Assembly: GCA_947486785.1 (NCBI GenBank)
Contig: CANKUU010000006.1
Location: 1 to 64,000 of the forward strand
DNA length: 64,000 bases
Direction: 5' to 3'
Source: an uncultured Flavobacteriaceae bacterium
GTDB taxonomy: Bacteria; Bacteroidota; Bacteroidia; Flavobacteriales; Flavobacteriaceae
This document shows, piece by piece, positions 34,780 to 60,095 of this stretch (position 1 is the stretch's first letter; each line of letters opens with the position of its first letter). The notes beneath the pieces were generated by a model. That model had not been told where the DNA came from, made no database searches, and saw only the letters and a list, made by a program, of their open reading frames with translations. The translations under genes and the position numbers were made by a program.

Positions 34780-35913
34780 TTAGGGCGTAGTGTTACTTCT
34801 CCATAGTTTTTGGTAATCACTAAATACCTTTTGCATAGTATAATTAGCGAGTACTTTTTTTATTCCATTCTGTCCCATTTCTTGCAATTTGTTTGGGCTA
34901 GTTACTGCATATTCGATGGCTTTTGTAAGTTCTTCTGTATTTTTTGGCTTAACGCATAAACCACATTTTTGTTTGCTTTCAATATCAAGCATTTGCGGAA
35001 TAGCGCCTACATTGGTTGCAATTATTGCCGCCCCCATGGCCATACCTTCGAGAACTACATTTGGGAAACCTTCGGTGTAACTTGGAAGAGCAACCATGGA
35101 ATGAGCTCTCATTTTTTCTAAAACCTTAGACTTCTCTAAGGCTCCTTCAAATATAAGCCAGGCACCACTAGCTCTTTTTTTAGCTATTTCCATTAAAGCA
35201 ACTTTCGTGTGCTCTTCGTAGGGGCCAACTAAGGTTAAGCATTCTACTTTTTCAATTACGGCACAGGCCTCAACAAGTTCAAAAACACCTTTTTGTTTTA
35301 CTACATGGCCAACAAACAATATGTTGCCAGGAGGTCTTTTTTGATAATTTTCATTTACAGTGATACATTGATTAGCTACACCAATTGAAATTGGGTTAGG
35401 CATTTGACAAATATTTGTAAATCCTTTAGATATTAGTGTATTGTAAGAGAGTAAATCAAGGACTATTGAGTATTTGCTTTTTTTTATAACCTTACTTATT
35501 AGCTTGTATTCCCAGTTAGGTTGTTCGGCTAATTGAGGTATTCGACCAAACCTCCAATGTGCGATAACAGGTATATTGTTTTGTTTTGCTAACCTAATAA
35601 TTAATAAATCTTTTAGCAGAGAGTAGGAGGCGCTACTTACTAAATGAATAATGTCAGGCTTGTTCTTAATTAGATTTTTTACTTTTTTGTAGATCCGAAA
35701 AGAATTTATAATACCGGTATAAATTCTAGTAAATTGAGACCTCGAGGTAATTCGGCGATGCTTACTTGAAGAATCGCATAATGTTAATGCTATTTCTTTA
35801 TTCTCTAAGGTTTTGTAGTAATCGGTTACATTTACAGTCCAAGAAGCGATTCCGCCTATAGGTGGCGGTAAAGGAGCAACTAGTACTACGTTGAGAAGTT
35901 TTTTGGGTGGCAT
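34780..35913 (-). CDS. Glycosyltransferase family 4
   Basis: 377 residues, GT-B fold. The N-terminal motif VVLVAPLPPPIGGIASWT is typical of GT4 enzymes. Later come NILFVGHVVKQKGVFELVEA, TLVGPYEEH and PSYTEGFPNVVLEGMAMGAAII (E-x7-E donor-binding region). It adds a sugar to the repeat unit; specificity is unknown. It is the last intact gene of the minus-strand run starting near 38.4 kb. Confidence 0.9.
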   Translation of the reverse strand: MPPKKLLNVVLVAPLPPPIGGIASWTVNVTDYYKTLENKEIALTLCDSSSKHRRITSRSQFTRIYTGIINSFRIYKKVKNLIKNKPDIIHLVSSASYSLLKDLLIIRLAKQNNIPVIAHWRFGRIPQLAEQPNWEYKLISKVIKKSKYSIVLDLLSYNTLISKGFTNICQMPNPISIGVANQCITVNENYQKRPPGNILFVGHVVKQKGVFELVEACAVIEKVECLTLVGPYEEHTKVALMEIAKKRASGAWLIFEGALEKSKVLEKMRAHSMVALPSYTEGFPNVVLEGMAMGAAIIATNVGAIPQMLDIESKQKCGLCVKPKNTEELTKAIEYAVTSPNKLQEMGQNGIKKVLANYTMQKVFSDYQKLWRSNTTP

Positions 35914-35986
35914 TAGTTTTGCTTTTTAATATTGTTATTTATTCAATACCTATGGTTGTTTGAATAAGAAACTGTCTTTCGATAGC

Positions 35987-37174
35987 TCAAATAATTTTTG
36001 AAATAAAGGCGTCAAAATTATCAATATGTTTTTTGTAATAAAAAGACTTTTCTGCTTCACGCTGTGCAGCGGCCTTAAATTTACTTTTTAGAGTATGGTC
36101 TAAATTTATAGCTTTAGTGAGCGCCTTTACTAATGCTTCAATGGTATTGTCGGTAACAATAAAGCCATTGGTATTTTCGTGTAAGTATAATCCAATATCG
36201 CTTGTTAAGTTTGCTATTACAGGAAGACCTGCCGCTAAACTTTCTACGAATTTTGTTGGAAATCCGGCATTTGCGTATCGCATGTTTGGTCTAATTAATA
36301 CAGAAAAATCAGCTTTTGCTAAATTTTCAGGTATTTCATTTTGATTTATTCTGCCATGAAAAACAATTGTTTGGCCTAGTTCTTTTAATAATTCTCTTTC
36401 CTCTCCTAAAACGTCTTGAATTTGTTCTGGACTGGGGCCGAATAAATGCAGTTTAATTGAATGCCCTTGATCTACAATTTTTTTGACACTCTTAATGATA
36501 ATATCTATGGAGTCTTTTTTTGCTGGAACCCCTGCATATAAAAGATTTAGGCTCTTTTGATCGAAAGAACTAACCTGGTCAAATTTCCATTTTTCATCAT
36601 CAAGGTCGAACAGCTGAGGTATTCTAATTGTGGTCATTCCCTTTTCTATAAAATACTTTTGTAGAAAAGAACTAATAGCTATGACTCCATCACATTTTGG
36701 TATTAATTTTTGAATTGCAAAATTCATATCCCAAAACATCGGACTCCATTTGCCTCCATTTATTTGCACAGGATCGTACCATTCGACAATATCGGTTATT
36801 AGTTTTATGTTATTTTTTTTTACATATTTTAAAAGCGGTTGTAGATATGTTGCGCTATTTCCGTAGTAAATAATAATATCACATGCTATGGCTTTTTCTT
36901 TTAAAATTGCAATGGTCATTTTACCTGAAAACATTACCTGTTTTGCTCTATTAACTAAAGAGGGTTTATTAGGTATGTTAAAGTATCTAAAATCTTGATA
37001 ATTGCCTGATAAACAGTTGGGGTCATCTGTACGCATACACTTTCCTATGTAAACCACATCATAACCAATACTTTTTAATATTTTACCTATACCGATAACT
37101 CTCGTACTTGCAGCATCACCAAACGGAAAATTAAATCTACCAACGATTGCTACTGTTTTTTTTTTCTTGTTCAA
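35987..37174 (-). CDS. Glycosyltransferase family 4
   Basis: 395 residues from a TTG start (NKKKKTVAIVGRFNFPFGDAAST). The N-terminal domain contains CDIIIYYGNSATYLQPLL. The C-terminal domain has LNLLYAGVPAKKDSID, HLFGPSPEQ and FPTKFVESLAAGLPVIAN (donor-binding Glu). It lies 12 bp after the Wzy-like gene. The start region contains a run of ten A residues in coding sense, a possible slippage site. Confidence 0.87.
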   Translation of the reverse strand: MNKKKKTVAIVGRFNFPFGDAASTRVIGIGKILKSIGYDVVYIGKCMRTDDPNCLSGNYQDFRYFNIPNKPSLVNRAKQVMFSGKMTIAILKEKAIACDIIIYYGNSATYLQPLLKYVKKNNIKLITDIVEWYDPVQINGGKWSPMFWDMNFAIQKLIPKCDGVIAISSFLQKYFIEKGMTTIRIPQLFDLDDEKWKFDQVSSFDQKSLNLLYAGVPAKKDSIDIIIKSVKKIVDQGHSIKLHLFGPSPEQIQDVLGEERELLKELGQTIVFHGRINQNEIPENLAKADFSVLIRPNMRYANAGFPTKFVESLAAGLPVIANLTSDIGLYLHENTNGFIVTDNTIEALVKALTKAINLDHTLKSKFKAAAQREAEKSFYYKKHIDNFDAFISKII

Positions 37175-37186
37175 GATGTGCTAATT

Positions 37187-38383
37187 TTATTTAATAGTTT
37201 TAATGGTGTGTATTTTAAATTTTTCATTGTAAGCGTTTATTACACCTAAAAAGATGCAAGAAACCGAGAATAGGTTAAAGTAACCTATCATTATTGGTTC
37301 AACAAAAAACACCAAAATGATACAAATACTGTAAGATAAAACTAAGGCGTTAAAAGATAATTCTTTAGGGTGAAGCGCTAGTGCTTTTTTAATGTCAAAA
37401 AAAGATTTAAAATGAAAAAAAATCAAGAAAATCATAGGCAATATTCCACCAATCATAGCTACATCTAGCCAAAGGTTGTGTGCGAAACCAAATTCATTTT
37501 TACTCCAACCCATTGGCTTTGTAAATATGTTTTCTGCTGCTTTTTCCCACCTTTGGCTTCTTCCTCCAGCACTTGCAACATTTTTTGAGTCTTCCATTCT
37601 ACTAGCGTACACACTCATCCAATCGGCATCTTTATCAAAATTAACCTGAGTAGCGAAAAGGCCAATAAATACAACAAGACCGAGCAACATTGGAAGGTTT
37701 TTCTTAAGGGACTGTTTTTTTAACGCATACAATACTGTTATTAGTATTGAAATAAAGCCAATTGCCAATTGAGTTCTACTACCAAGTCTAATAACACAAA
37801 TTAAGGAAAGAAAGAATATGACTCCACTAAAAATTTTAAAACTTAAACTAAGTTTTAATTGCTTTATTAGAAGTAGACCAGGTAAACTCATATTGAATAA
37901 AAAATAAGAACTCATATTTGTTGCATTTAGTACACTACCATTCCAAAATAACGGTAAGTTTCTTTCAACTGAGGCAAAACCACCTTTTAGAAATACTTGT
38001 AAAACCGAAATCATTGGTGTTATAGAAAAAGTAAAACCAATACAAATAAGAAGAATAAATAAGTTTTTATGACTACAAAATTGATTTATAAAGTATTTCC
38101 CTAAAAGATAAAATCCTGGAGGTATAATGGCATAAACAAAGATATATTGTTGCCCGCCAGTTGGATCAAAACTGTAAAAAAGAGCATAGGTAATTGAAAA
38201 TATACTAATTAGTACATAACCTTTATCTAAATTTTTTAAAAGGAAGTCTTTTTTGAAAAATATTAAGGTAACGGCAATCCAACCAAAAACATATCCTCTA
38301 GCATATGGATCTAATAAGTATAAAAATAGACTCATACTTATAGGAAAATCAAAAGACTTAAAGTATTTTATTGTTGCGTTCAT
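37187..38383 (-). CDS. Wzy-like polysaccharide polymerase / O-antigen ligase family protein
   Basis: 398 residues with about 10-11 hydrophobic segments. A large loop (about 265-315) carries the Wzy_C pattern: GGRSQRWEKAAENIFTKPMG followed by FAHNLWLDVAMIGG. Such proteins join repeat units (Wzy) or ligate polymer to lipid A (WaaL) in the periplasm. Locus context with Wzx, Wza and Wzc favours Wzy. Confidence 0.82.
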   Translation of the reverse strand: MNATIKYFKSFDFPISMSLFLYLLDPYARGYVFGWIAVTLIFFKKDFLLKNLDKGYVLISIFSITYALFYSFDPTGGQQYIFVYAIIPPGFYLLGKYFINQFCSHKNLFILLICIGFTFSITPMISVLQVFLKGGFASVERNLPLFWNGSVLNATNMSSYFLFNMSLPGLLLIKQLKLSLSFKIFSGVIFFLSLICVIRLGSRTQLAIGFISILITVLYALKKQSLKKNLPMLLGLVVFIGLFATQVNFDKDADWMSVYASRMEDSKNVASAGGRSQRWEKAAENIFTKPMGWSKNEFGFAHNLWLDVAMIGGILPMIFLIFFHFKSFFDIKKALALHPKELSFNALVLSYSICIILVFFVEPIMIGYFNLFSVSCIFLGVINAYNEKFKIHTIKTIK

Positions 38384-38559
38384 TAGTTATTTCTAAAAAA
38401 AAATACTGTGCTTTTAGCGTCTATTTTTATAACTGTAATTCTTCATCAGTATACGTATCATAAGATGAAATTTAATAGTTCTTTTTAAAGAAACGCAAAA
38501 AAATATAGTTTTATAAAGTTAGGCAGCGATTTATAATAAACTTAAAGATTAATAAGTCA

Positions 38560-39735
38560 TTAAAATATTTTTCGTTTTAAATTTCCAAGTCTAATCAAGG
38601 TGATTTTGAAAAATAAGAAGGCCGCATCTTTGAGTGTAACAATTTTGTAATTGTATACTAATTCATTATATCGGTTTTTTGTAAAATTATTTGCTTTGGG
38701 TTGTGATAAGTCATAAAGGAATATGTCATCACCTGAAATTTTAAATATAATATTTATGTCAATGGGTTTTAATCTTTTACCAAAACTTTTTAAAATAGTA
38801 TAGTCTATTTTTTTTGTGGTAAGTAAATATTGAACATTTGACGGTAATGGTTTAAAGCCATATAGATCAATACAACAATTATCACTAGTTAGATCAAGAT
38901 GTTTAGCTAGGTTTTTGTTTTCGTAAAAAGCATCGTAAATACTGTTCGATTCTTCTAAACGAGAAAAATTAAAATTTGATTGAATGTTGTATCTTAAAGT
39001 AACTTGATAAGCAGTAGTATTCTGAAAATTATGAGTGCCTGCCTCCCCAAAATTGGTAGATAAAGCAATTTTTGGATATAAGAAATATTTATTTGTTTCA
39101 ATCAAATATACGATGTAGTATTTTAACCAAGATTTTTCGGACCAGCTAGTAACCGTATAAGGTATGGTAGAAGGTTTTACCTGCAGAATTTGATTGGTTT
39201 CATACCATTGTATAAAAGATTGCCATTGTACTTTAGTCCAACATTGACCCCATGATGCGGCATACTGAAAATACCAGTTATCAAAACCATCCTCTATAGG
39301 AGAAAAATTTTGATGAGTTTGTTGATTTAATTGGTGATTATAGAGTGAGATACCGCCTATATAGTCTTTGTCACTACTAAATTTTAATGCCTCAACTGCG
39401 TATCTATAAAACGTTGGCGCTACAAGAAGATCATCTTCAAGTACAATAACACTACCATACTCAACAGCAAAATTAGCACACTTGATTATATGTTTTCTTA
39501 AGCCTAAATTTTCTTCGTGATATTTGATGATTTTTTCTCCGAATGACCAAATAAATTGTTTAGCAATTTTTAATACTTCGTTATTTGTTTCGTGATAGTC
39601 GATACTAATTATCAAGGGAATTTCATCAAATTCTTTATAATCAGCAAGCGCAAGTGAATTTAAAATTCTTGCCAAACAATCTGGCCTATTGTAAGCCACA
39701 ACAACGATTGGAGTAATGGTGTTTTTCAATGTCAT
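38560..39735 (-). CDS. Glycosyltransferase, GT-A fold (GT2 / GNT-I-like)
   Basis: 391 residues: ITPIVVVAYNRPDCLARILNSL, a positioning region HEENLGLRKHIIKCANFA, and metal-binding VIVLEDDLLVAPTFYRY. The middle part contains an aromatic stretch (WYFQYAASWGQCWTKVQW) often seen in this group. It probably adds a sugar to the lipid-linked unit. A 176-bp gap separates it from the downstream Wzy gene. Confidence 0.82.
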   Translation of the reverse strand: MTLKNTITPIVVVAYNRPDCLARILNSLALADYKEFDEIPLIISIDYHETNNEVLKIAKQFIWSFGEKIIKYHEENLGLRKHIIKCANFAVEYGSVIVLEDDLLVAPTFYRYAVEALKFSSDKDYIGGISLYNHQLNQQTHQNFSPIEDGFDNWYFQYAASWGQCWTKVQWQSFIQWYETNQILQVKPSTIPYTVTSWSEKSWLKYYIVYLIETNKYFLYPKIALSTNFGEAGTHNFQNTTAYQVTLRYNIQSNFNFSRLEESNSIYDAFYENKNLAKHLDLTSDNCCIDLYGFKPLPSNVQYLLTTKKIDYTILKSFGKRLKPIDINIIFKISGDDIFLYDLSQPKANNFTKNRYNELVYNYKIVTLKDAAFLFFKITLIRLGNLKRKIF

Positions 39736-39940: not shown

Positions 39941-42900
39941 TTACTGGTTAGTAGGGGGCGTAAATCTTACATTGTTCCAAGAGCAGTTTTGCCATTTTAC
40001 ATCAAACCTACTATACGGTGCATACTTACCCTGAACTTCAATTATTAATTCATTTCCGTTTGTAAAATTGCAGTTTGTAAAAAGTATATCTTCTGTTTTG
40101 TAATAAGTAACTGCAACAGAATTAAAGTCTCTAAAATTACAATTAGTAAATTTATTTCTACTTGCTTTAACACTAAAATTGGTAGCAGACCCTACGTTAA
40201 GAACTCTATCCACATTTTTAACTGTTATATGCTCAAAATTATTATCGTGTCCCATACTAGCAGCATCACGATCGCCACCTTCTCCGACAGCTCCGTCATT
40301 ATTATCTCTCCAGGTAATGGCTTTATAGGTGTTCTCAATAGTCATATTTTTAATGGTGTTGTGATGAGCTCCATTTAAAATAAAAAGGCTAACTTCTGAT
40401 GGTTCTTTTCCTGGACCAATTATTTTACAGCCATCCATTGTATTGTTTTTAACTCCTGAAAAATTAAACTCAAAGGTGGTATTTTTAGCGATACAGTTCT
40501 TAAACGTATTATTTTCGGCTAAATCTTTCATGTCGAATCCATGTCCAGTATGAAAAAGATCTCCAACACGTTCCGCGTAACTATTTTCTATTCTTGAATT
40601 ATTTGTGCCATTGGAAAATAAGAAATAGTAATCGGTTGGGTTAGTGGCGTTATTACTATAGGCCTTAGAGTTTTTTATCAAACCGTAATCAGCACCAGCC
40701 AAATTATAACCTTCTGCACCAGCATTTAGAATGAAGCAATTTTCAATTTTTACATTATTTCCTTTTAAATTGAAACCAAAACCGTCGTAGCTATTTCTAT
40801 TTTGAATGCCAATATTTACAGAAATAATATTTTTAAATGTATTATGGGTGGCTCTTTCAATATTAAGTACCGCTTTAGAGTATCCAGTAATTTGAAAATT
40901 CTCAAATTCAATATAACTATGATACGATGTAATAGCCTGTCCACTGCCCGGTGTACCTGTTAGTAAAGGCATCTCACTTGCACTAATTCTATCGCCATAA
41001 TTGAAGGTCGATTCTTGACTACTAGATATATCACCAGGAGAATTTTTGTAACCAACAAACCGTATTGGATTTCCACTAGACCCATTGTTTTGTGTTAGAA
41101 GTTCTTTATTACCATAATTACCCGCCTTTACGTAAACTATGTCTCCTGCTCTTGCAACGTTTAAGGCATGCTCTATACTCCAAGCAGAAGATTCTGATTG
41201 ACCATTATTTGAAGAATTTCCGCTAGTGGTTACGTAATATCCTGTCCTAGATCCTTGTGAAGGGTTTGATTGTTGAACAGTTATAGTAATTGATTTAGAA
41301 TTTGTTAATCCTTCGGCATCTCTAACTGTTAAATTAACAACATAAGTTCCAGCCGTTGTAAAGGTATGCGATGGTGTAGCATTTGTTGCTGTTTCTCCAT
41401 CTTTAAAATCCCATAGGTAGCTAACGATGCCTTTGTCATCTGTTGAATTTTGACCTGAAAATTCAACATTCAAAGGAGCTTTACCTACCACTTTATTAGA
41501 GTTTACTACAGCAATTGGAGCTCTATTTTGTGCGGGCTCAGCAATTACAGTAACCGTTTTAGTACTCGAGAGTCCTTCTTCGTCCGTTACAACTAGTTCA
41601 ACTACATAGGTACCTGGTGTTGTAAATTTGTGCCTAGGGTTTGATGTAGTTGAGGTTGATCCATTTTTAAAGTCCCATGCGTAATTTACTACTCCCTTAT
41701 CATCTGTAGAATTATCACCAACAAATTGTACATTTAACGGAACTGTCCCAGAGGATGGAGTAGCAATAGCTACAGCAACAGGAGCCTCATTAGCTTTGGG
41801 CAAAACAGTTATGGTAATATCTTTTTTGTTAGATAAACCATTTTCATCAGTAACCGTTAACTCAACTACATACGTGCCAGCAGTTGTAAAGGTATGAGCT
41901 GTATTTGCTGAATTTGCTGTGCTACCATCCTTAAAGTTCCAAAGATAACTTGATATGGCGTTGTCATCTGTTGATTTATCACCAGTAAAAGAAATTTCTA
42001 AAGGGGCCTCTCCTGTTAGTTTGTTTGCAGTTGCAATTGCTTTAGGTGCTTGGTTAGGTGTTTCGTTAACAGTAATGGTTACATTGTCTGTTGATGAGAG
42101 TCCATCTTCATCGGTAACTGTTAGTACTACTTGGTACGTGCCGATTGCTGTAAAGGTATGAACAGGATTAGAAGAACTAGACCTAGCTCCGTCATTAAAA
42201 TCCCAAGCGTAAGATTTAATTTTGTTGTCGTCACTTGAGTTACTTCCTGTAAAAGTTACTGATAAGGGAGCATTGCCAGTAGTAGGAGATCCATCTGCAA
42301 CCGCAATTGGCGCATTATTATTTTGTTGCTGCTCTTCTTCATTAGTTCCGTTACCTTCTTCTTCGGTGTTGTTTTCTTCTTCGGTGTTGTTTTCTTCTTC
42401 GGTGTTGTTTTCTTCTCCGGTGTTATTTTCTTCTTCGGTGTTGTTCTCTTCTTCGGTGTTGTTTTCTTCTTCGGTGTTGTTTTCTTCTTCGGTGTTGTTC
42501 TCTTCTTCAGTATCGTTTTCTCCTTCAGTTTCTGGTATTGCATCCGAATCTTTAGCTACTTCATATGTAACTACTAATTTAGGACCAATTCCTAAATGGT
42601 GTTCTTTTGAGGCAAAGGCCAAATCATTTGCGCCTTTATGATCTAAGACTAGAGTTGAATTTTCAGGTGCGATGTTCTCCGTATTCAAAGAAATTGACTC
42701 CGTCGATCCTAAATGATATTCTTTTAAAATTGAGCCTAATTCCATATCTATTTCTGGCGCAGTTTCTGCTGATAAGTTATTTTCTGTCCAACTACTGGTT
42801 TCAGCTTTATATACAGTTACTTTACCATTTCCATCATCACTATCAATGGTAAACTGAAGTTTAACATCAACAATTTTACCTCCAATAGCTTCAATTGGAT

Positions 42901-43234
42901 TAAGGTTAAACATTAAATAACTTGTTCTATAATCCTCTTGTAATCTTACAATACTTTGATTATACCCTTTGCCGCTTTGAATATGAGCGTCATGAATGGC
43001 AGAGAAACTTGTGGTTCTAACTTCAATATCGTCATCTTCGGTTGTGTTTTCTTCAGGAGATTCTTCAGGAGATTCTTCTTCAATAGTTCTTTCTTCTTCG
43101 GTAGTGTTAGATGAAGAATTACCTAAAGTCTCAGCTAATAAATCAGAATCTTTGGTACATGCTAAATTCACTATAATGGAAGAGATGATAAAAATAATAA
43201 AGGTAAAGTGAACTTTGGTAAGATTAAATTTCAT
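39941..43234 (-). CDS. Surface-type lipoprotein: DNRLRE/CBM96-like, Glu/Asn repeat, four PKD domains, parallel beta-helix
   Basis: 1097 residues. Lipoprotein signal with Cys26 (IIVNLAC) followed by TKDSDLL. Then an acidic linker, a DNRLRE/CBM96-like beta sandwich (about 70-228: HDAHIQSGKGYNQSIVRLQE, RTSYLMFNL), a repeated Asn-Thr-Glu linker (about 240-295), four PKD domains (about 306-392, 393-479, 480-568, 569-658; each with YxWDF/YLWNF and HTFTTAGTYVVELTV-type motifs), and a right-handed parallel beta-helix (about 665-1097) containing VGDLFHTGHGFDMK. The fold is typical of polysaccharide lyases and epimerases. Lying inside an exopolysaccharide locus, it may modify, cut or bind the polymer at the surface; activity is unproven. 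A paralogue is at 43708. Confidence 0.85.
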   Translation of the reverse strand: MKFNLTKVHFTFIIFIISSIIVNLACTKDSDLLAETLGNSSSNTTEEERTIEEESPEESPEENTTEDDDIEVRTTSFSAIHDAHIQSGKGYNQSIVRLQEDYRTSYLMFNLNPIEAIGGKIVDVKLQFTIDSDDGNGKVTVYKAETSSWTENNLSAETAPEIDMELGSILKEYHLGSTESISLNTENIAPENSTLVLDHKGANDLAFASKEHHLGIGPKLVVTYEVAKDSDAIPETEGENDTEEENNTEEENNTEEENNTEEENNTEEENNTGEENNTEEENNTEEENNTEEEGNGTNEEEQQQNNNAPIAVADGSPTTGNAPLSVTFTGSNSSDDNKIKSYAWDFNDGARSSSSNPVHTFTAIGTYQVVLTVTDEDGLSSTDNVTITVNETPNQAPKAIATANKLTGEAPLEISFTGDKSTDDNAISSYLWNFKDGSTANSANTAHTFTTAGTYVVELTVTDENGLSNKKDITITVLPKANEAPVAVAIATPSSGTVPLNVQFVGDNSTDDKGVVNYAWDFKNGSTSTTSNPRHKFTTPGTYVVELVVTDEEGLSSTKTVTVIAEPAQNRAPIAVVNSNKVVGKAPLNVEFSGQNSTDDKGIVSYLWDFKDGETATNATPSHTFTTAGTYVVNLTVRDAEGLTNSKSITITVQQSNPSQGSRTGYYVTTSGNSSNNGQSESSAWSIEHALNVARAGDIVYVKAGNYGNKELLTQNNGSSGNPIRFVGYKNSPGDISSSQESTFNYGDRISASEMPLLTGTPGSGQAITSYHSYIEFENFQITGYSKAVLNIERATHNTFKNIISVNIGIQNRNSYDGFGFNLKGNNVKIENCFILNAGAEGYNLAGADYGLIKNSKAYSNNATNPTDYYFLFSNGTNNSRIENSYAERVGDLFHTGHGFDMKDLAENNTFKNCIAKNTTFEFNFSGVKNNTMDGCKIIGPGKEPSEVSLFILNGAHHNTIKNMTIENTYKAITWRDNNDGAVGEGGDRDAASMGHDNNFEHITVKNVDRVLNVGSATNFSVKASRNKFTNCNFRDFNSVAVTYYKTEDILFTNCNFTNGNELIIEVQGKYAPYSRFDVKWQNCSWNNVRFTPPTNQ
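42353..42514. repeat. 18-bp tandem repeat, nine units, coding for (N/D)TEEEN
   Basis: Nine imperfect copies of an 18-bp unit encode the Glu/Asn/Thr linker of the lipoprotein gene. Copies differ by single bases (one encodes NTGEEN). The array is in frame, so copy-number change would lengthen or shorten the linker without breaking the gene. Confidence 0.9.
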
Positions 43235-43649
43235 TTTTCTATTAACTAATTGTGACTACTTTAAACTAATTGGCGGTAAACTTGAATTTTGGGCTGGTTT
43301 TAAAATTTGATTATTTTATTGATAAAGGACATTAAAATATTTAATTACTAAAGACTGTTTTAATGGAATTTGGTGTTTTTTATTTCTAAATATTGGACTT
43401 GTATCGGATCAAAAATTTAGGAAATAGCCTACAATTAGAATTCGTAAATCGTTGTAAATTTAAAGCTGCAAACTTAAAAATTAATTTTTTGTAAATCGTT
43501 GTAAAGCGATTATTTTCGATGAAATGCACAAAATTGTGATTTTTTTAAGAAAAAGATGTGCTTTTTGAGAACTGTTCTCGGTATTTTAGTTGAAATAGGC
43601 AGCGATGTAATAGAAGCTTTAACCTTTATTGTACATTTTCTGTAAAAAG
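43235..43649. other. AT-rich intergenic region upstream of the PKD lipoprotein gene
   Basis: About 415 bp without a recognisable gene. TTGTAAATCGTTGTAAA-like words recur near 43445-43505. It presumably carries the promoter of the minus-strand gene starting at 43234. Confidence 0.45.
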
Positions 43650-43679
43650 TAAAAACCTCGATATGTGAATATCGAGGTG
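43650..43679 (-). terminator. Rho-independent terminator of the second beta-helix lipoprotein gene
   Basis: A perfect 10-bp stem (43655-43664 with 43669-43678) and GTGA loop lie 30 bp after the minus-strand stop codon. Read on the minus strand, the stem is followed by TTTTTAC. Confidence 0.85.
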
Positions 43680-43707
43680 GTATCTACGTATAATAAAATG
43701 GTATGGT

Positions 43708-45777
43708 TTAGTTGGGTTTGGTAAAACCTAGGTTTGACCAATGGCAATTTTGATAACTGGCATCTACTTGATAGGTCGCTCCTCCTTTTATACGTTCTAT
43801 TTTGAAATTTCTTACATTATCAATCGTACAGTCGATTAATCTCGTGTTAGAATTTGCTCTATCAACTTCAAATAAAAAATCAATATTTGAAAATGAACAG
43901 TTGGTGAAAGTATTATTGTCGGCGCTACTAGCATTATTTGTTTCTAAAAAATGAGAAAAGGCTATTGCTGAAAACGCATCTTTTACTTGAATGTTTAAAA
44001 AGGTATTGTTATCACTTGTATCATTTACATCGCCCGCTAAGCCATCATTCCAATCGCTAAATTTTATAGAACAGTTAGTTAATATGATATTTTCATAATG
44101 GTTGTTTCTAGCCCCATTTGCCAGTCGCATTCCACTAGCATCTCTTGTACGAGCATTAACATTAGCTTCTTTTTCAACTCTTCCATTTTTAAAAATATTA
44201 CTCGTAGTTTTTGGAAATTGAACTTCTAAAAAAGTATTCAATATTGAAAACTCATCAACAATGTTGCCCGTTATGGCACTTTGTCCTTTTGCTACTATGC
44301 CATGACCTAAATGAGTTAATGCGCCAACTCGATGTACAAAAGTATTTTTAAAAAGTGAATTAACTGTTCCTCCGCCAATTAGGAAATAATAATCAGTTGG
44401 ATTTATGTTATTGTCAGCATATACTTTATTGTTATAGGATTTTATTCCAGACCCATTTTGAAAAGTAATGCCTTGGGCTCCACAATTCAACGCAAAGCTA
44501 TTGTGTAATTCTATGTTATCACCTTCAATAATAAAACCTAGTCCTGTATAATTTAAATGTTTGTTACTGGTTGCTGTAGGGTAGGTGTGGTTAGGGTTAT
44601 AATCTCCTATTTTCGAAACGATTATATTTTTAAATAAACCATTGTTCGCCTTTGCGTATAAACCGTTTTTAAATTGAGTTATCTGAAAATTTTCAATTTG
44701 AACGTATGGTTCAACTATTTTTAAAGCAGTACCTTGACCTTCTCCGTTTGGTGCTGCTCCTGTTAATAGAGGCATTTTATTAGGGTCTAGTGTATCGCCG
44801 TAGGTGAAGGTAGAGCCTTCATTACTTACAATATCACCTGGCGTATTAGTATATCCAATAAACTTAATAGGCTTATTTGAAGTTCCTGAGTTATCAGCAA
44901 GCAATTCTTTATTACCATAATTTCCTGCTTTTATGTATACAATATCTCCTGCGGTGGCATTTTCAAATGCATGTTCAATACTCCACGCATTAGCCTCAGA
45001 TCGTCCATCATTTGATGAGCTTCCATTAACTGAAACAAAGTAGGTGTTTTCTGTGGATTCTGTATTTCCATTTTCTTCTTCTGTCTCTTTATCTGTTTCT
45101 TCTTCTTCTTCTTCTTCTTCTGATTGCCCAATTTCGGGGCTATCTTCCGGTGCCATGTAGGTAATTACCAATTGCGGCCCTTCATTTGAGGGATGTTCTT
45201 TAGATGCGAAAGCAAGGTCGTTTCCTGAATTATGGGTTAATACTAAAGTGGTTTTTTCGGCTTCAATTTCATTAAAATCTAATGTAACTTTTTGGGGTAA
45301 GCCTACTTTGTATTCTTTATTTAAACTGGCCAGTTGTTTTTTGGGTTGTGGCGCATTGGCTACTGTTAAGTTCTCCTCTGTCCAGTTCGTTTGGTCTCCT
45401 TTGTGCACGTTTATACTCCCGTCACCCTCATCACTTGCAACAGAAAATTGCAAAACAGCTTTTGTTATTGCCCCATTTACTTCGCTAAGGTCGAACATAA
45501 GATAGCTTGTTCTATAGTTTTCTTGCAAACGAACTATAGACCGATCATAACCTTGGTTCTCTTGAACATAAGCATCATTAATGGGTGAAAACGTATACGT
45601 TCTACTTACTAAATTACTTTCTGATGGTTCTTCAGTGGACGGATCTTCGACACCTATTTCGGGTTCGTTAATTACGGCGTCAAGTAATAAATCAGAATCT
45701 TTGTTGCAGGAAAATAATAAAGTAATAACTGCCATTATTAAGGTCATCTGACTTACTTTTTTTAGGGTGATTTGCAT
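43708..45777 (-). CDS. Surface-type lipoprotein: DNRLRE/CBM96-like domain plus parallel beta-helix (paralogue)
   Basis: About 689 residues from the ATG at 45777; an in-frame TTG at 45831 would add 18 residues but weakens the signal peptide. Lipidated Cys24 (VITLLFSC) is followed by NKDSDLL, nearly the same as in the 39941 gene. A DNRLRE/CBM96-like domain (NDAYVQENQGYDRSIVRLQE, YRTSYLMFDL), an acidic Glu/Thr linker with eight Glu codons in a row, and a parallel beta-helix (FVSVNGSSSNDGRSEANAWS, then GDIVYIKAGNYGNKELLADN and VGALTHLGHGIVAKG) follow. PKD domains are absent. It is probably a polysaccharide-active or -binding surface protein and has its own terminator. Confidence 0.85.
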   Translation of the reverse strand: MQITLKKVSQMTLIMAVITLLFSCNKDSDLLLDAVINEPEIGVEDPSTEEPSESNLVSRTYTFSPINDAYVQENQGYDRSIVRLQENYRTSYLMFDLSEVNGAITKAVLQFSVASDEGDGSINVHKGDQTNWTEENLTVANAPQPKKQLASLNKEYKVGLPQKVTLDFNEIEAEKTTLVLTHNSGNDLAFASKEHPSNEGPQLVITYMAPEDSPEIGQSEEEEEEEETDKETEEENGNTESTENTYFVSVNGSSSNDGRSEANAWSIEHAFENATAGDIVYIKAGNYGNKELLADNSGTSNKPIKFIGYTNTPGDIVSNEGSTFTYGDTLDPNKMPLLTGAAPNGEGQGTALKIVEPYVQIENFQITQFKNGLYAKANNGLFKNIIVSKIGDYNPNHTYPTATSNKHLNYTGLGFIIEGDNIELHNSFALNCGAQGITFQNGSGIKSYNNKVYADNNINPTDYYFLIGGGTVNSLFKNTFVHRVGALTHLGHGIVAKGQSAITGNIVDEFSILNTFLEVQFPKTTSNIFKNGRVEKEANVNARTRDASGMRLANGARNNHYENIILTNCSIKFSDWNDGLAGDVNDTSDNNTFLNIQVKDAFSAIAFSHFLETNNASSADNNTFTNCSFSNIDFLFEVDRANSNTRLIDCTIDNVRNFKIERIKGGATYQVDASYQNCHWSNLGFTKPN
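45097..45120. repeat. TTC trinucleotide microsatellite (8 units) coding poly-Glu
   Basis: Eight TTC units (GAA on the coding strand) make an uninterrupted run of eight Glu residues in the linker of the 43708 lipoprotein. The run is in frame and could vary in length. Confidence 0.9.
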
Positions 45778-46759: not shown

Positions 46760-48040
46760 TTAGAGTCTGCCGTCAACTTTTCCTTTAAGTATGCCTTTAA
46801 CATCATATAAAATACTTTTGTTATTTAACATTGCATTTAAATCTAGTGACAAAAATTCTTTATGAGCTACAGTTAGTACGATGGCATCAAACTTCGCATT
46901 TGGCAGTTTATTGGTAGTTTTTAGTTGGTATTCATGTATTACTTCGTTTGGATCAGCCCATGGATCATATATAGTAACATCAGCTCCATAACTTTGAAGG
47001 TTATTAATTACATCAACTGCCTTGGTATTTCTAACATCAGGACAGTTCTCTTTAAAGGTGACACCAAGTACTAAAATGTTAGAATTTTTTATTTTAATAT
47101 CTTTCTGGACCATTAATTTAATAACCTCGGAAGAAACATATTTGCCCATTCCATCATTCATACGTCTGCCAGCAAGTATTATTTCTGGATGATATCCATA
47201 TTCTTGTGCTTTTTGAGCAAGGTAATAAGGATCTACCCCAATACAATGTCCGCCAACTAAACCTGGTTTAAATGGAAGGAAATTCCATTTGGTACCTGCG
47301 GCCTTTAAAACTTCATTGGTATCTACACCCATGAGGTTAAAAATTTTCGCCAGTTCATTTACAAAAGCAATGTTGATATCTCTTTGCGAATTCTCAATAA
47401 CTTTTGCCGCTTCGGCAACTTTTATAGATGGGGCTAAGTAAGTGCCAGCCGTAATAACTGAAGCATATAGCTCATTAATTTTTTGTCCTGTTTGTGGTGT
47501 AGAACCTGCTGTTACTTTCAATATTTTTTCAACCGTATGTTCCTTGTCTCCTGGGTTTATTCTTTCTGGTGAATACCCGACAAAGAAATCAACATTAAAT
47601 TTTAGACCGCTAATTTTCTCTAAAACGGGTACACATTCGTCTTCTGTGACACCAGGATAAACAGTAGATTCGTATACAACGATATCTCCTTTCTTTAAAA
47701 CTTTACCCACCGTTTCGCTTGATTTATATAGCGGCGTTAGGTCGGGTCTGTTGGTACTGTCTACTGGTGTAGGTACGGTTACAATAAAATAGTTGCAATC
47801 GTTAAGAATATCTAGTTTATTAGTGCAATAGAGGCCAATTTCTGAAGATGATTTATCTTTTGTAACCTCCTTTAGAAGCGTTTCACTTACTTCAAGGGTG
47901 CTGTCATAACCGCTTTGTAGTTCAGATATTCTACTTTCATTTATATCAAAACCTATTACAGAATATTTGGTAGCAAATAATCGGGCTAGTGGTAGGCCAA
48001 CATAGCCTAAACCTATTACAGCAATTTTAGTGTTGTTCAT
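46760..48040 (-). CDS. UDP-N-acetylhexosamine 6-dehydrogenase (WbpO/TviB-like)
   Basis: 426 residues: NAD-binding KIAVIGLGYVGLPLARLF, substrate-binding region with YESTVYPGVTEDECVPVLE, catalytic Cys in GGHCIGVDPYYL, and C-terminal VLGVTFKENCPDVRNTK. The family oxidises UDP-GlcNAc or UDP-GalNAc at C6 to the uronic acid. Its neighbour, a WbpP/TviC-like 4-epimerase, suggests UDP-GalNAcA as the product, as in Vi antigen. It is distinct from the ugd at 51710. Last gene of its run, with a terminator downstream. Confidence 0.9.
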   Translation of the reverse strand: MNNTKIAVIGLGYVGLPLARLFATKYSVIGFDINESRISELQSGYDSTLEVSETLLKEVTKDKSSSEIGLYCTNKLDILNDCNYFIVTVPTPVDSTNRPDLTPLYKSSETVGKVLKKGDIVVYESTVYPGVTEDECVPVLEKISGLKFNVDFFVGYSPERINPGDKEHTVEKILKVTAGSTPQTGQKINELYASVITAGTYLAPSIKVAEAAKVIENSQRDINIAFVNELAKIFNLMGVDTNEVLKAAGTKWNFLPFKPGLVGGHCIGVDPYYLAQKAQEYGYHPEIILAGRRMNDGMGKYVSSEVIKLMVQKDIKIKNSNILVLGVTFKENCPDVRNTKAVDVINNLQSYGADVTIYDPWADPNEVIHEYQLKTTNKLPNAKFDAIVLTVAHKEFLSLDLNAMLNNKSILYDVKGILKGKVDGRL

Positions 48041-48097
48041 TTAGAAATAATTATAAGATTTTATAAATAAATATGTGCACATGTATAGCAGTTAAAC

Positions 48098-49096
48098 TTA
48101 GCGTTCTAAATTTTCCCAGTACCATTTTATTGCTTCTTTAAGACCTGCTTTGATATCAAATTGTGGGTTGTAGCCTAAAAGATCTTTAGCTTTTTCAATA
48201 GACGCCAAGGAATGAGGAATATCTCCTGCACGTTCTGGGCCATGCAATATTTCGATCGATCCTATTTTTGAATCATATGCGGTTAGATATTCTTTAACTA
48301 TCTGTATCAACTCGATTAATGTGGTACGATCACCAAAAGCAACGTTGTAAACATGATTCGCAGAAGCTGAAGGTGCAACAATAGCTCTTACATTAGCTTC
48401 TATCACATTGTCAATATAGGTAAAATCTCTAGAATAACTACCATCACCATTTATCGTCGGAGATTCATGATTTATGAATGACAAAACAAATTTAGGAATT
48501 ACGGCTGCATATGCTCCATTGGGGTCTTGATGTCGCCCAAAAACATTAAAGTATCGAAGGCCAATTGTTTCCATGCCATAAGTTTTTCCAAAGACGTCTG
48601 CATAAAGCTCATTAACATATTTGGTTATGGCATAAGGAGAAAGTGGTTTGCCTATTTTATCTTCTACTTTTGGTAATGATTTAGAATCTCCATAAGTGGA
48701 AGAGCTGGCAGCATATATAAAACGTTTTACACCTGCTTCTCTTGTGGCAACTAGCATGTTTAAAAAACCAGAAACATTTACTTCATTACTGGTTATAGGG
48801 TCATTTATTGATCTGGGTACCGAACCCAAAGCTGCCTGATGTAAAACATAATCTATTCCTTCAGTTGCTTTTTTACAGGTGTCTAAATCTCTTATGTCGC
48901 CTTCAATAAAATTAAAGTTTGGATTTGATAAAATGGGTTCTAAATTCTTTATTTTACCAGTAGCTAAATTATCTAAAACCCTGACTGTATTTCCATTTTT
49001 AAGAAGCGCTTTGCATAAATTTGATCCAATGAAACCTGCTCCACCAGTAACTAATATATGGTATTTTGAATTTAATTTTAAATGTTTAATGTTCAT
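48098..49096 (-). CDS. UDP-N-acetylglucosamine 4-epimerase family SDR (WbpP/TviC-like)
   Basis: About 332 residues from the ATG at 49096; an in-frame TTG lies 12 bp upstream. SDR motifs: VTGGAGFIGSNLCKALL, HQAALGSVPRSINDP, AASSSTYGDS, YAITKYVNELYADVF (Tyr-x-x-x-Lys) and LRYFNVFGRHQDPNGAYAAV. The PRSINDP and GRHQDP segments are typical of WbpP/TviC. It interconverts UDP-GlcNAc(A) and UDP-GalNAc(A). It pairs with the dehydrogenase 57 bp downstream. Confidence 0.9.
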   Translation of the reverse strand: MNIKHLKLNSKYHILVTGGAGFIGSNLCKALLKNGNTVRVLDNLATGKIKNLEPILSNPNFNFIEGDIRDLDTCKKATEGIDYVLHQAALGSVPRSINDPITSNEVNVSGFLNMLVATREAGVKRFIYAASSSTYGDSKSLPKVEDKIGKPLSPYAITKYVNELYADVFGKTYGMETIGLRYFNVFGRHQDPNGAYAAVIPKFVLSFINHESPTINGDGSYSRDFTYIDNVIEANVRAIVAPSASANHVYNVAFGDRTTLIELIQIVKEYLTAYDSKIGSIEILHGPERAGDIPHSLASIEKAKDLLGYNPQFDIKAGLKEAIKWYWENLER

Positions 49097-49278
49097 GTAT
49101 TTATTCAATTTTAAAAATTCTGGTTTACTTTGGAGATAGATTTCATTTCGTTAAACGTATATTTATAGCTTAAATTGCTGATTCTACTTTCTGTTTTAGT
49201 TTTTGTTAACCTAATTTTTTATTCAAAGAGAAGAAGTTTATTTGGCTTTAACTGTACTTTAATTTTTTTTTGCTAAAA

Positions 49279-50364
49279 TTATTCTAAAAGAGTATACCAG
49301 TCAATTAATTTTCTGACCCCCTCGTTAAGCTCAATTTTATGTTTCCAGCCTAAATTATTTAGCTTAGTTACATCAGTTAATTTTCTTAAGGTTCCATCCG
49401 GTTTTTCAGAATTAAATATAAATTCCCCTTTGAAACCAACTTCTGTTTTTATTATATCTGCTAACTCTGCAATTGAGATATCGACACCTGTCCCAATATT
49501 AATGTGTGTATTTCGAATATTTTTTTCATCAATATAGGTATCTGAAAAATTTCTTTTTTCCATCAAAAAAACGCATGCATCTGCCATGTCTTCGGACCAT
49601 AAAAATTCGCGCATTGGCTTACCGCTGCCCCAAATTTCAACTGAAACCGTTTTATCTATTAAACGAATCCCGTATTTATTCAATATGGTTAATATTTTTT
49701 CTTTATCCGAGTTTCCATTAACACCCTCAATAGGCAGTTTATTGAGGTCTTGTGCTATAATATCCCAGTTGTCATTATCTAGTGCTTTACCCAATATGAT
49801 TTTACGAATTAAAGCTGGTAAAACATGTGATTTTTCTAAATCGAAATTATCATTAGGACCATAAAGGTTGGTAGGCATAACAGAAATATAGTTGGTGCCA
49901 TATTGCAAATTATAACTTTCACAAAGCTTTATTCCTGCAATTTTTGCAATTGCATAGGGTTCATTAGTATATTCAAGAGTGTCGGTAAGTAAATATTCTT
50001 CTTTCATCGGTTGCGCACAATTTTTAGGATATATACATGTGCTTCCTAAAAAAAGTAACTTTTTAACCTTATTACGATACGCTTGATGAACCACATTATT
50101 CTGGATCATCAGATTTTCATAAATAAAATCTGCCCTGTAGTTGTTATTTGCAATAATACCACCGACTTTAGCCGCGGCTAAAATTACGCAATCTGGTTTT
50201 TCATTTTTAAAAAATAACTTCACTTTTTCAGTGTCAGTTAAATCTAATTCAGAATGAGTTCTTGTAATTAAATTAGTATATCCTTTTTTAACTAAGTTTT
50301 TAATAATTGCGCTTCCAACAAGACCACGATGACCGGCTACATATATTTTCGAATTCTTATTCAT
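49279..50364 (-). CDS. fcl: GDP-L-fucose synthase
   Basis: 361 residues: KIYVAGHRGLVGSAIIKNL, AAAKVGGIIANNNYRADFI, LGSTCIYP, EPYAIAKIAG (catalytic Tyr and Lys) and PTNLYGPNDNFD. It is longer than the common ~315-residue form because of an insertion about 200-245 (EGVNGNSDKEKILTILNKYG) before EIWGSGKPMREFL, as seen in several Bacteroidetes. It converts GDP-4-keto-6-deoxymannose to GDP-L-fucose. It lies 3 bp from gmd, in one operon. Confidence 0.94.
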   Translation of the reverse strand: MNKNSKIYVAGHRGLVGSAIIKNLVKKGYTNLITRTHSELDLTDTEKVKLFFKNEKPDCVILAAAKVGGIIANNNYRADFIYENLMIQNNVVHQAYRNKVKKLLFLGSTCIYPKNCAQPMKEEYLLTDTLEYTNEPYAIAKIAGIKLCESYNLQYGTNYISVMPTNLYGPNDNFDLEKSHVLPALIRKIILGKALDNDNWDIIAQDLNKLPIEGVNGNSDKEKILTILNKYGIRLIDKTVSVEIWGSGKPMREFLWSEDMADACVFLMEKRNFSDTYIDEKNIRNTHINIGTGVDISIAELADIIKTEVGFKGEFIFNSEKPDGTLRKLTDVTKLNNLGWKHKIELNEGVRKLIDWYTLLE

Positions 50365-50367
50365 AAA

Positions 50368-51483
50368 TTATTCAAAGTAGTTTAGAATGCGATATCCACC
50401 TTGTTTTAAGTATTGCTCTTTTTTCATTTGGGTTAAGTCGCTAACAACCATATCTTTAACTAAATCACTTAATTCGTACTCTAGTTTCCAGCCCAATTTA
50501 TTTTTGGCTTTGGTAGGGTCACCAATAAGCAACTCAACCTCGGTAGGTCTAAAATATTTAGGATCAATTGAAAGTACTTCTTTGCCAATTTCAAGTTGGT
50601 ATTCAGGATTATTACATGCCTTAATTAGCGCTTTTTCATTAACTCCGCTGCCTTTGAATTCTAATTCAATTCCGGCTTCAGCAAAACTCATACGAACAAA
50701 TTCTCTCACTGAGGTAGTTTTACCCGTTGCTATAACCCAATCTTCTGCCTCATTCGCTTGTAAAATCATCCACATCATTCGAACGTAGTCTTTTGCATGC
50801 CCCCAATCTCTCTGAGCATCTAAATTGCCAAGGTAGATCTTATCTTGAAGGCCAAGAGCAATTCTAGCGGTAGCTCGTGTAATTTTTCGGGTAACAAAAG
50901 TTTCTCCTCTAATAGGTGATTCGTGGTTAAATAAAATACCATTACAGGCGAACATACCATACGCCTCTCTATAATTTACAGTAATCCAATAGGCATACAT
51001 TTTTGCAACTGCATACGGACTTCTAGGGTAAAAAGGAGTGGTTTCTGATTGCGGAACTTCTTGAACTTTACCGTAAAGTTCAGAAGTAGAAGCTTGATAA
51101 ATACGGGTTTTCTTCTCCATTCCTAAAAGACGTACTGCGTCTAAAACTCTTAAAGTTCCAATACCATCGGCATTCGCTGTATATTCAGGAATTTCAAAGG
51201 AAACATGTACATGACTCATTGCCGCCAAATTATATATTTCATCGGGTTGAATTTCCTTTATTAACCGAATTAAATTGGTGCTATCAGTCATGTCACCATA
51301 GTGCAAAATAAAGTTTCTATTTTCGATATGAGGATCTTGATATAAATGATCAATTCTGTCCGTATTAAAAAGTGAAGATCTTCTTTTTAAGCCATGAACT
51401 TCATACCCTTTTTTCAATAAAAACTCACTTAGATAAGCACCATCTTGCCCTGTTACTCCTGTAATTAATGCAATTTTTTTCAA
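50368..51483 (-). CDS. gmd: GDP-mannose 4,6-dehydratase
   Basis: 371 residues from a TTG start ([20 protein letters not shown]). Motifs: [59 protein letters not shown] (catalytic Tyr and Lys) and [13 protein letters not shown]. It makes GDP-4-keto-6-deoxymannose for fcl, 3 bp downstream. The mannose-1-phosphate guanylyltransferase needed to make GDP-mannose is not in this window. Confidence 0.95.
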
Positions 51484-51709
51484 TATACTGATTTTAAGGT
51501 TAGGTGTTTTTATAAAACTTTTTTAATCTCCTCTTTAGTTACTCTTTGTTCTTGTGATTTGTTTTTACTTAATCAAGGGTGATTTTTGTTAAATAAAACA
51601 TGAATTTTGATAAATACAGTCATACTAAGTGAAGTAAAGTCTTGTTGACTTTATCTTGATATTACACTTAATAAAATTGTGCTAAAATTTAAGAGCAATT
51701 GAGCTGCTT

Positions 51710-53104
51710 TTAAGATTGGCCTATTTTATAATATTCAAAACCAATTTCTTCCATATGCTCTTTCTCCAAAAGACGTCTGCCATCAAAAATAAAAGCTGGT
51801 TTTAACATTTTAGAGTAAATGTCTTTCCAATTATATGATTTAAACTCGTCCCATTCGGTTAAAATAGCTATTGCATGAGCATCTTCTGAAGCTTTAATTG
51901 GGTTTTCAACCACAGTTAAAAGTTTTCTATTTTCTTCTGGCGATCTTGTACCTAAATAGTCCAAATCAGCATAGATTTGGCTTGCAGGTACTTTTGGATC
52001 ATAAATTACAATCTCTGCTTTTTCATCTAGTAAGGCGTCGGCAACATATATCGCGGCAGATTCTCTTGTATCATTGGTGTCTTTTTTAAAGGCCCAACCA
52101 TAAAATAAAATCTTTTTTCCCGAAACCGTGTTGTATAATGTGGTTACTATATTTTCGGCAAAACGTCTTTTTTGGTAATCATTCATAATAATTACCTGTT
52201 CCCAATAATCAGCAACTTCACTAAGACCGTAACTTTGCGCTATATACACAAGATTTAGAATATCTTTTTGAAAACAAGATCCTCCAAAGCCCACAGAAGA
52301 GCTTAAAAATTTAGAGCCAATTCTGCTGTCAAATCCGATCGCTCTAGAAACTTCATCGACATTTGCATCTGTTTTCTCACACAGAGCCGAAATAGAATTT
52401 ATTGACGAAACTCGTTGCGCTAAAAATGCATTTGCAACTAGTTTAGAAAGTTCTGATGACCAAACATTGGTTTGCAGAATACGCTCTTTCGGAAGCCAAT
52501 TTTCATAAATACTACTTAGGGCATCTTTGGCCGCCTGACCCTTGGTGGTTTCAGCACCTCCAATTAAAACTCTATCGGCATTCAATAAATCTTCAATAGC
52601 TGTACCTTCTGCTAAAAATTCAGGATTAGACAAGATTTCAAAATCAACGCCATTTCCTGTATTGTCGAGGATGCTTTTAATGGCACTAGCCGTTCGAACA
52701 GGTAAGGTAGATTTTTCAACAACAATTTTATTTGTTTTGGCTACTTTGGCAATATTTCTAGCACATAACTCAATATTTTTTAAATCTGCAGCCTGACCCT
52801 TACCTTTTCCATAAGTTTTTGTAGGGGTATTAACAGAAATAAATATAATTTCTGCTTCATCAATAGCTGTATCAATGTCATTAGAAAAGAAAAGGTTTTT
52901 TCCTCTGGTTTTTTCAACTAATTCTTTTAAACCAGGCTCATAAATTGGAAGCTTATCTAAATCTTGATGATTCCATAAAGCGATTCGCTCTTTACTCAAG
53001 TCTACAACAGTTACCTGAATATTTGGGCATTGGCTAGCGATAACAGACATAGTTGGTCCGCCAACATAACCAGCTCCAATACAGCATATTTTTTTAATGA
53101 TCAT
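51710..53104 (-). CDS. ugd: UDP-glucose 6-dehydrogenase
   Basis: 464 residues, the long eukaryote-like form common in Bacteroidetes: [62 protein letters not shown], catalytic Cys in [15 protein letters not shown] and [16 protein letters not shown]. It oxidises UDP-glucose to UDP-glucuronate in the cytosol. It is the first minus-strand gene of the run toward gmd (227-bp gap) and is divergent from the DegT gene. Confidence 0.94.
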
Positions 53105-56495: not shown

Positions 56496-56539
56496 TTTTT
56501 TTAATTTAGCATTAATATTACTAACAGAGACACTTAATT

Positions 56540-57319: not shown

Positions 57320-57353
57320 AGAATACATTTTAAACTTAGAAACAGATCTTATA

Positions 57354-60036: not shown

Positions 60037-60095
60037 CATTCCAATTCATTTTTTTTAGATGATTGCTTCAAATTATTGCTTTTAAACGAGATGCT

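Follow-up and report, generated by a model that had tools for sequence, protein, structure and literature searches.

A stretch of 64,000 nucleotides (hereafter the window; contig CANKUU010000006.1 of assembly GCA_947486785.1) from an uncultured marine Flavobacteriaceae bacterium raises the question of what two large, paralogous lipoproteins, here called A and B, do in the midst of genes for the synthesis and export of an exopolysaccharide. The original prediction had been that both may be dedicated enzymes which cut, epimerise or retain the polymer made by the same locus. Our analyses establish that lipoproteins of this type are linked to exopolysaccharide loci, that they share a common anchor on which modules are interchangeable (some of these modules being recognised lyases), and that their beta-helix modules are exchanged; one clear helix exchange includes the flippase gene. 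With slightly more confidence than doubt, we read A and B as outer-surface lipoproteins whose beta-helix processes the uronate polymer of their own locus, as a lyase (or epimerase).

Two paralogous surface-type lipoproteins

Both genes were called as open reading frames (ORFs) on the minus strand, A (1097 amino acids) at 39941..43234 and B (689 amino acids) at 43708..45777, and a genome homology search showed them to be the sole copies in this genome, with no third. The architecture that had been predicted for the pair holds. Each protein begins with a lipobox (CTKDSDLL with Cys26 at 43136..43159 in A; CNKDSDLL with Cys24 at 45685..45708 in B), followed by a CBM96-type domain, an acidic linker and, at the C-terminus, a beta-helix module (39944..41242 in A; 43711..45048 in B) that contains a conserved segment (HTGHGFDMK at 40526..40552 in A; HLGHGIVAK at 44287..44313 in B). 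The CBM96/DNRLRE domain of B (45157..45600) exceeds the curated cut-offs of both Pfam (PF24517, 48 bits vs. 26) and NCBIfam (46.5 vs. 34); in A, CBM96 gave no Pfam match at E <= 1, and the CBM96-like region (42563..43021, with approximate borders) was recognised through its homology to B (42% over B residues 12-335). Asp and Glu account for 18 of the 36 linker residues in B (45049..45156) and for 36 of 81 in A (42320..42562). The linker of A also contains an 18-bp tandem repeat of 9.5 copies (window positions 42356-42526), which is a candidate for length variation between strains. Between its linker and its helix, A carries four PKD domains (Pfam; 41276..42319) that were absent from the original prediction.

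In Bacteroidota, the export signal of surface lipoproteins has been described as C-x-K-(D/E)2-x following the lipid cysteine (PMC5080379). Both A and B carry C-x-K-D-S-D, which resembles this signal, although the charged residues are, unlike those of the consensus, not adjacent; both proteins are thus probably anchored on the exterior of the cell. The lipobox DNA pattern yielded 22 matches in 14 genomes of the genus as compared to 11 in a reversed control, a difference that is weak alone and was not used as evidence. The two genes are separated by 473 bp, and a terminator-like stem of 10 pairs follows B (43655..43678, minus strand; a consensus match only); given this spacing and stem, A and B may be expressed separately.

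Lipobox-bearing relatives are mostly found in exopolysaccharide loci

Within the same genus, the A and B pair was found again in four genomes (G002, G004, G006 and G007), while in a fifth (G003) B lies near a contig end; in all five loci the export and nucleotide-sugar genes are shared and the transferases vary. A contig scan of genomes, from which the best 80 of 100 relatives were taken, gave 75 distinct loci from Flavobacteriaceae (Maribacter, Arenibacter, Cellulophaga, Robiginitalea and others), Saprospiraceae, Bacteroidales and a few other groups. For each locus we counted exopolysaccharide-type genes within up to 10 kb, with a threshold of at least four neighbours; the seeds for this count were taken from the window and its relatives, and distant exopolysaccharide genes may be missed. 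The lipobox was scored as a text pattern, which also admits variants (e.g., in L051).

At least four exopolysaccharide neighbours were found in 37 of 40 loci with a lipobox, as compared to 2 of 35 loci without (P = 1.8e-15; Fisher's exact test, kinship not corrected for). Counted per protein, 47 of 52 with a lipobox and 3 of 38 without were in an exopolysaccharide context. The exceptions were L051, L053 and L070 (the last on a 7-kb contig), which have a lipobox outside such a context, and L116 and L050, which lie in exopolysaccharide loci and have no lipobox. For L050 and for protein B of L073, the missing lipobox probably reflects the start codon chosen in the ORF call (too far downstream in L050); both were kept as counted. 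By comparison, exopolysaccharide neighbours were absent (0/7) from seven control regions surrounding PL6 lyases of the same genus. The co-occurrence with polysaccharide loci that the original prediction had proposed as a check is thus found among relatives with a lipobox.

An asparagine-synthase-like gene is often located beside or near the helix genes (L048, L049, L053, L065, L068, L072 and L075), and its product may convert a uronic acid in the polymer to the amide; visual inspection of the window's ORFs showed nothing that resembles this gene.

The same anchor carries other modules

The N-terminal anchor (lipobox, CBM96, linker and often PKD) also heads Flavobacteriaceae proteins with other endings. 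The anchor proteins of L045, L123, L125, L126, L129 and L130 end in a polysaccharide lyase (PF14099, above cut-off), and the neighbouring genes, named from seed matches or visually, are those of glycosyltransferases, acyltransferases or a polysaccharide-deacetylase-like protein. A second type of beta-helix (PF13229) ends the anchor proteins of L044 and L124; the anchor protein of L128 was left out of the module counts. Among 249 family genomes drawn, the anchor was found in 23 at E <= 1e-25. From 37 anchor matches we examined the 18 regions, with 19 anchor proteins, in which the match reached near the lipobox, the remaining matches having already been examined or covering just part of the CBM96 region. 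By BLAST, these 19 proteins end in the helix family of the window (5 proteins), the second helix type (3), a PL1-like module (3), the PF14099 type (3) or none of these (5); four of the five regions with the window helix family (L143, L146, L148 and L154) are records already included in the 75-locus scan. That recognised lyase families are carried by the same anchor in other glycan loci goes further than what had been proposed originally.

The PL1-like label denotes BLAST similarity to the L127 module, which was named by eye. PF00544 exceeds its cut-off only in L144 (L144:10205-12265), whose module has PDB matches to a pectate lyase (E 3.8e-27) and to VexL (E 3e-10); this profile was not reached by L152, L156 or L127 (E <= 0.01). 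Matches to the UDP-sugar dehydrogenases of the window (Ugd or WecC seeds) were present in 12 of the 18 anchor regions; L142, L146, L147, L151, L154 and L159 had none, L154 having Wza and Wzc. Anchor proteins with an unnamed C-terminal module were also observed in exopolysaccharide loci (L145:8357-10129, L149:9651-12617, L155:9450-12650 and L157:7496-10372). The module of L145 matched no Pfam family and no PDB sequence, L157 gave only PKD-type and Ig-like families in Pfam, Pfam yielded nothing except CBM96 for L142, and the PF14099 module of L045 had no PDB sequence match. The second helix type (L150) matches the phage tail fibre structure 7qoj (E 7e-17), which we take to be that of crAss001, as well as 227 phage records; in the twelve of these shown, at most about half its length is covered, and ten of the twelve are Vibrio tail spikes.

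Helix modules move independently of the anchor

Anchor and helix trees were compared for the ten loci in which both A and B carry the anchor. In the anchor tree, the A and B proteins each form one clade (full support, 100/99), so that the A/B labels require one change, a value reached in 0 of 500 shuffles. In the helix tree, by comparison, the same labels require 7 changes (shuffled mean 7.0), at least six of which are forced, and a single clade was rejected (p-AU 3e-35). These results indicate that helix modules move independently of the anchor. Three helix types were distinguished: types I and III occur together in the window (III in A, I in B), L048 and L049; type I occurs twice in L047, type III twice in L060, L065 and L079, and type II twice in L066, L073 and L088.

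The clearest case of exchange is provided by two Maribacter isolates (L079 and L088). Their B proteins are approx. 98% identical up to codon 260, just within the helix (which starts at residue 244), 65-73% identical to about codon 340, and mostly 20-55% identical thereafter. The whole of A and the flippase differ as well, with the flippase family changing along with the helices, and L088 has one additional gene; the flanks are conserved, with 91% identity over the preceding 7.25 kb and 90% over 4.0 kb from the next transferase onwards. Across 40 helices, all from loci in which a single flippase type was recognised (a quick tree, near-copies included), flippase type required 4 changes on the helix tree as compared to 11.7 after shuffling (0 of 500 as low). 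Part of this association possibly comes from linkage and near-copies, and L050 and L060 are exceptions to a strict correspondence.

Fold and conserved residues of the beta-helix

An alignment of 71 rows was assembled from 69 stretches, representing 69 of the 75 loci, and the two window helices. With this alignment, AlphaFold2 modelled the helix of B (model m1e9012256c56) as a right-handed beta-helix with a pLDDT of 96.5 and a pTM of 0.94, in agreement with the fold predicted originally. In the numbering of the B helix, polar residues were kept at R240 (70 of 71 helices), H246 (62), H249 (68) and K254 (68), all of which fall outside the two peptide patterns used to find relatives, and the last three of which belong to the HxGHGxxxK segment that had been singled out beforehand; Y220 was present in 71/71 helices, a count that is biased as this residue sits within the search pattern. 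The near-invariant R/H/H/K cluster spans 41 lipoprotein-type and 30 other helices, and its residues would, judging by predicted secondary structure, sit on adjacent coils. Two loci (L041:9029-10513 and L042:9846-11363) encode an anchor-free, stand-alone helix protein in which H249 and K254 are changed and which adjoins cytochrome-oxidase-like genes (by eye).

When the B model was compared to solved structures by VIA, where absence from the listing carries no weight as evidence, the best rows were the A-modules of the mannuronan C5-epimerases AlgE6 and AlgE4 (Z 31, root mean square deviation 2.6 A over approx. 318 residues); PL6 lyases (Z 29), phage tailspikes (Z 28) and RbmB, a Vibrio lyase (Z 26), were also listed. 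The modelled helix thus appears to have a fold employed by uronate lyases and epimerases, with no known enzyme family assigned. Members of PL6 have a catalytic lysine and arginine. Filing the helix as PL6 was rejected, as the profile Chondroitinas_B (PF14592) had no match in A or B at E <= 1 and matched 5 of 71 aligned helices at E <= 0.01 (best 2.8e-5), and as the profiles were out of register. The A-module fold of AlgE/AlgG-type epimerases was matched (Z 31), yet this fold is common to other families in the same list, and no AlgE sequence was among the 6 PDB matches to the 71-helix profile. Single-protein searches against solved structures gave nothing of use.

Phage relatives of the helix

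A search of the B helix against 50,697 phage records gave seven matches, all from the Cellulophaga phages phi4:1 and phi17:2 (gp48 and gp49, with helix family matches of E 2e-21 and 2e-24, respectively). The phi4:1 protein, whose annotation as part of the virion comes from mass spectrometry, adjoins tail proteins and a pectate lyase. The helix is also matched by PHROG 36353 (head and packaging category; E 4e-29), and, among predicted viral structures, phi17:2 ranked first for the B model (E 3.7e-24, TMq 0.88; next 2e-8). A scan of viral contigs found 6 relatives, 3 of them over most of the helix, which were examined for the conserved residues. A chromosomal helix protein of G004 (L043:9106-11899) is 57-61% identical to the phi4:1/phi17:2 virion protein over approx. 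540 amino acids, from which we infer that the helix module probably moved between host and phage.

The surrounding locus

As in the original prediction, A and B lie between glycosyltransferase/polymerase genes and nucleotide-sugar genes; Wzx-like, Wza-like and Wzc-like genes are also present around them, and the Wzx and Wzy matches are below curated cut-offs. At lower window coordinates are a Wzx-type flippase (32645..33961, plus strand; 45 bits vs. a cut-off of 800) and a block of glycosyltransferases with a Wzy-like polymerase (34780..39735, minus strand; Wzy_C 30.4 bits vs. 31.7), with a partial transposase-like ORF (34086-34538, minus strand; integrase core by eye) between the two. On the other side are a nucleotide-sugar block (46760..53104, minus strand) with TviB-like and TviC-like uronate genes, a UDP-sugar dehydrogenase and genes that we take, by eye and recall, to be Fcl-like and Gmd-like, followed by an aminotransferase, a PglF-like dehydratase, a Wza-like export protein and a Wzc-like kinase (53437..59744, plus strand). 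The TviB-like and TviC-like genes, with model scores below cut-offs, point to a locus that probably makes a uronate polymer. Adjoining Wzc, a large surface-type protein combines glucose/sorbosone dehydrogenase, PKD, CBM6 and malectin domains (60063-64000, plus strand); a relative occupies the same place in G004. Promoter-like sites numbered 36 (26.8 expected) and terminator-like sites 4 (4.1 expected), and no tRNA was found in the window.

Possible functions of A and B

The view that A and B are enzymes for the polymer of their own locus, and most likely lyases, draws on the surface anchor, the uronate locus, the fold, the recognised lyases on the same anchor and the exchange between strains. 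Lipidation and the C-x-K-D-x-D signal would place both proteins outside the cell, where the CBM96-type domain, the acidic linker and the PKD stalk of A may keep the module in or near the polymer. The C-terminal beta-helix would then bind a uronic-acid polymer and act on it via the conserved Y/R/H/H/K cluster. Going by the fold and by the lyase modules on the same anchor, beta-elimination by a lyase is the likeliest reaction and C5-epimerisation a less likely one, and the polymer would be trimmed, released or tailored where it leaves the cell.

A number of observations weigh against this view. Neither the PL6 profile comparison nor the PDB sequence matches allowed a catalytic residue to be equated with that of a known family; the former, made against eight PL6 sequences from the genus, gave a weak alignment (55% probability in local and 96% in forced global mode) that was out of register. 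In PDB, the 71-helix profile picked up PL9, a rhamnogalacturonan lyase and PL6; these matches cover chiefly the first coil, which is too little for family membership. The top VIA rows include NosD (Z 30), which has no such enzyme function, and the top Foldseek row by E-value is lacto-N-biosidase, a hydrolase (1.2e-7), with AlgE6 and an alginate lyase ranking closely behind; the fold alone therefore does not decide the function. The conserved cluster has exceptions, as the chromosomal proteins of L081 and L087 have R and H at H249 and K254, L104 is without R240 and H249, L080 is without K254, and the phage proteins carry R at position 249 and Q at position 254. Moreover, 33 of the 35 loci without a lipobox are outside exopolysaccharide loci, which indicates wider uses of the helix. 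Lastly, the polymerase-like gene and adjoining transferases stay approx. 90% identical between L079 and L088, which leaves the flippase and the one extra gene as the sole hints of a change of polymer, and the exchange could be explained by linkage and homologous recombination alone. Of the original proposal of dedicated polymer enzymes, the tie to exopolysaccharide loci and the epimerase- or lyase-like fold were thus borne out, while no catalytic residue was matched to a known lyase or epimerase.

The alternative that survives best is that the helices have no catalytic role and instead bind or retain a specific polymer, serving as a tether between the polysaccharide and the cell. Lipoprotein anchoring, the CBM96-type domain and the PKD stalks would fit a tether, as would phage relatives without H249 and K254, but the near-invariance of the R/H/H/K cluster in lipoprotein-type and other helices alike, together with the recognised lyase families on the same anchor, makes us consider it unlikely. 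We regard it as distinctly improbable that the helices are C5-epimerases which convert uronate in the finished surface polymer, as AlgE does on alginate: the top VIA matches are AlgE A-modules and the locus probably makes uronic acids, yet PL6 lyases are nearly as close (Z 29 vs. 31), no epimerase motif was matched, and the modules that replace the helix on the anchor are lyase families. It is very improbable that A and B act on foreign polysaccharides (algal uronates, e.g., alginate) or on the coats of competitors and lie in the locus by chance, as, even though CBM96 was defined on an alginate lyase (PMC9971899) and relatives without a lipobox are mostly outside exopolysaccharide loci, those with a lipobox are linked to such loci while PL6 regions of the same genus are not, and helix and flippase were switched together in L079/L088.

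Overall, these data suggest that every sugar coat is paired with an enzyme dedicated to cutting or tailoring it. A broader reading, to which we would give a little less than an even chance, is that Flavobacteriaceae possess a cartridge system in which one surface anchor takes at least four kinds of module (lyase or epimerase) that are matched to the polymer, swapped together with the flippase as a strain moves to another polymer type, and drawn from a pool shared with phage virion proteins, the helix of the window representing a new enzyme family; the odds of this reading are lowered by the polymerase-like and transferase genes kept in L079/L088. As far as we have seen, the common surface anchor with interchangeable modules, the exchange of these modules and a helix family that was assigned to no known enzyme family are new; no paper on CBM96/DNRLRE lipoproteins in exopolysaccharide loci was found, which is a weak negative as subscription journals were covered to a limited extent. 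How biofilms form and disperse depends in part on enzymes with which bacteria cut their own matrix; few such enzymes are known. If modules are indeed matched to polymers, a genome would show which enzyme acts on which marine exopolysaccharide, the modules would be tools to depolymerise otherwise intractable polymers, and their distribution would be a natural record of phage-host trade in polysaccharide enzymes.

Comparison with known systems

By analogy, RbmB and VexL would be the known parallels for an enzyme that acts on its producer's own polymer. RbmB is described as a lyase on the biofilm polysaccharide of Vibrio cholerae itself, where it cuts at a modified guluronate (PMC11637428). Like the window helix, it is a right-handed beta-helix, and the placement of its gene within the polymer-making locus is matched in the window and in the lipobox loci; the two are 15-16% identical. 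RbmB is described as secreted, and the descriptions available to us mention no lipid anchor, CBM96, PKD or module exchange, unlike what is seen for A and B. VexL is the Vi antigen depolymerase of Achromobacter denitrificans, which itself produces that capsule (PMC9597891). The resemblance here is to the PL1-type anchor module of L144 rather than to the window helix. Going by the title of the VexL paper as cited elsewhere, this enzyme is reportedly periplasmic and linked to an ABC exporter, whereas A and B are probably anchored on the outside of the cell.

The nearest solved folds of the B helix by VIA, those of the AlgE4 and AlgE6 epimerases and of PL6 alginate lyases, are 11-16% identical to it and belong to enzymes that act on alginate. 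The proteins of phages phi4:1 and phi17:2 are of the same helix family as B but, unlike A and B, have the helix at the N-terminus of a virion protein and have H249 and K254 changed. Phage tailspike depolymerases are modular host-range enzymes in which beta-helix modules are exchanged on a common anchor; in A and B, by contrast, the anchor is that of a bacterial lipoprotein encoded in a polymer-making locus.

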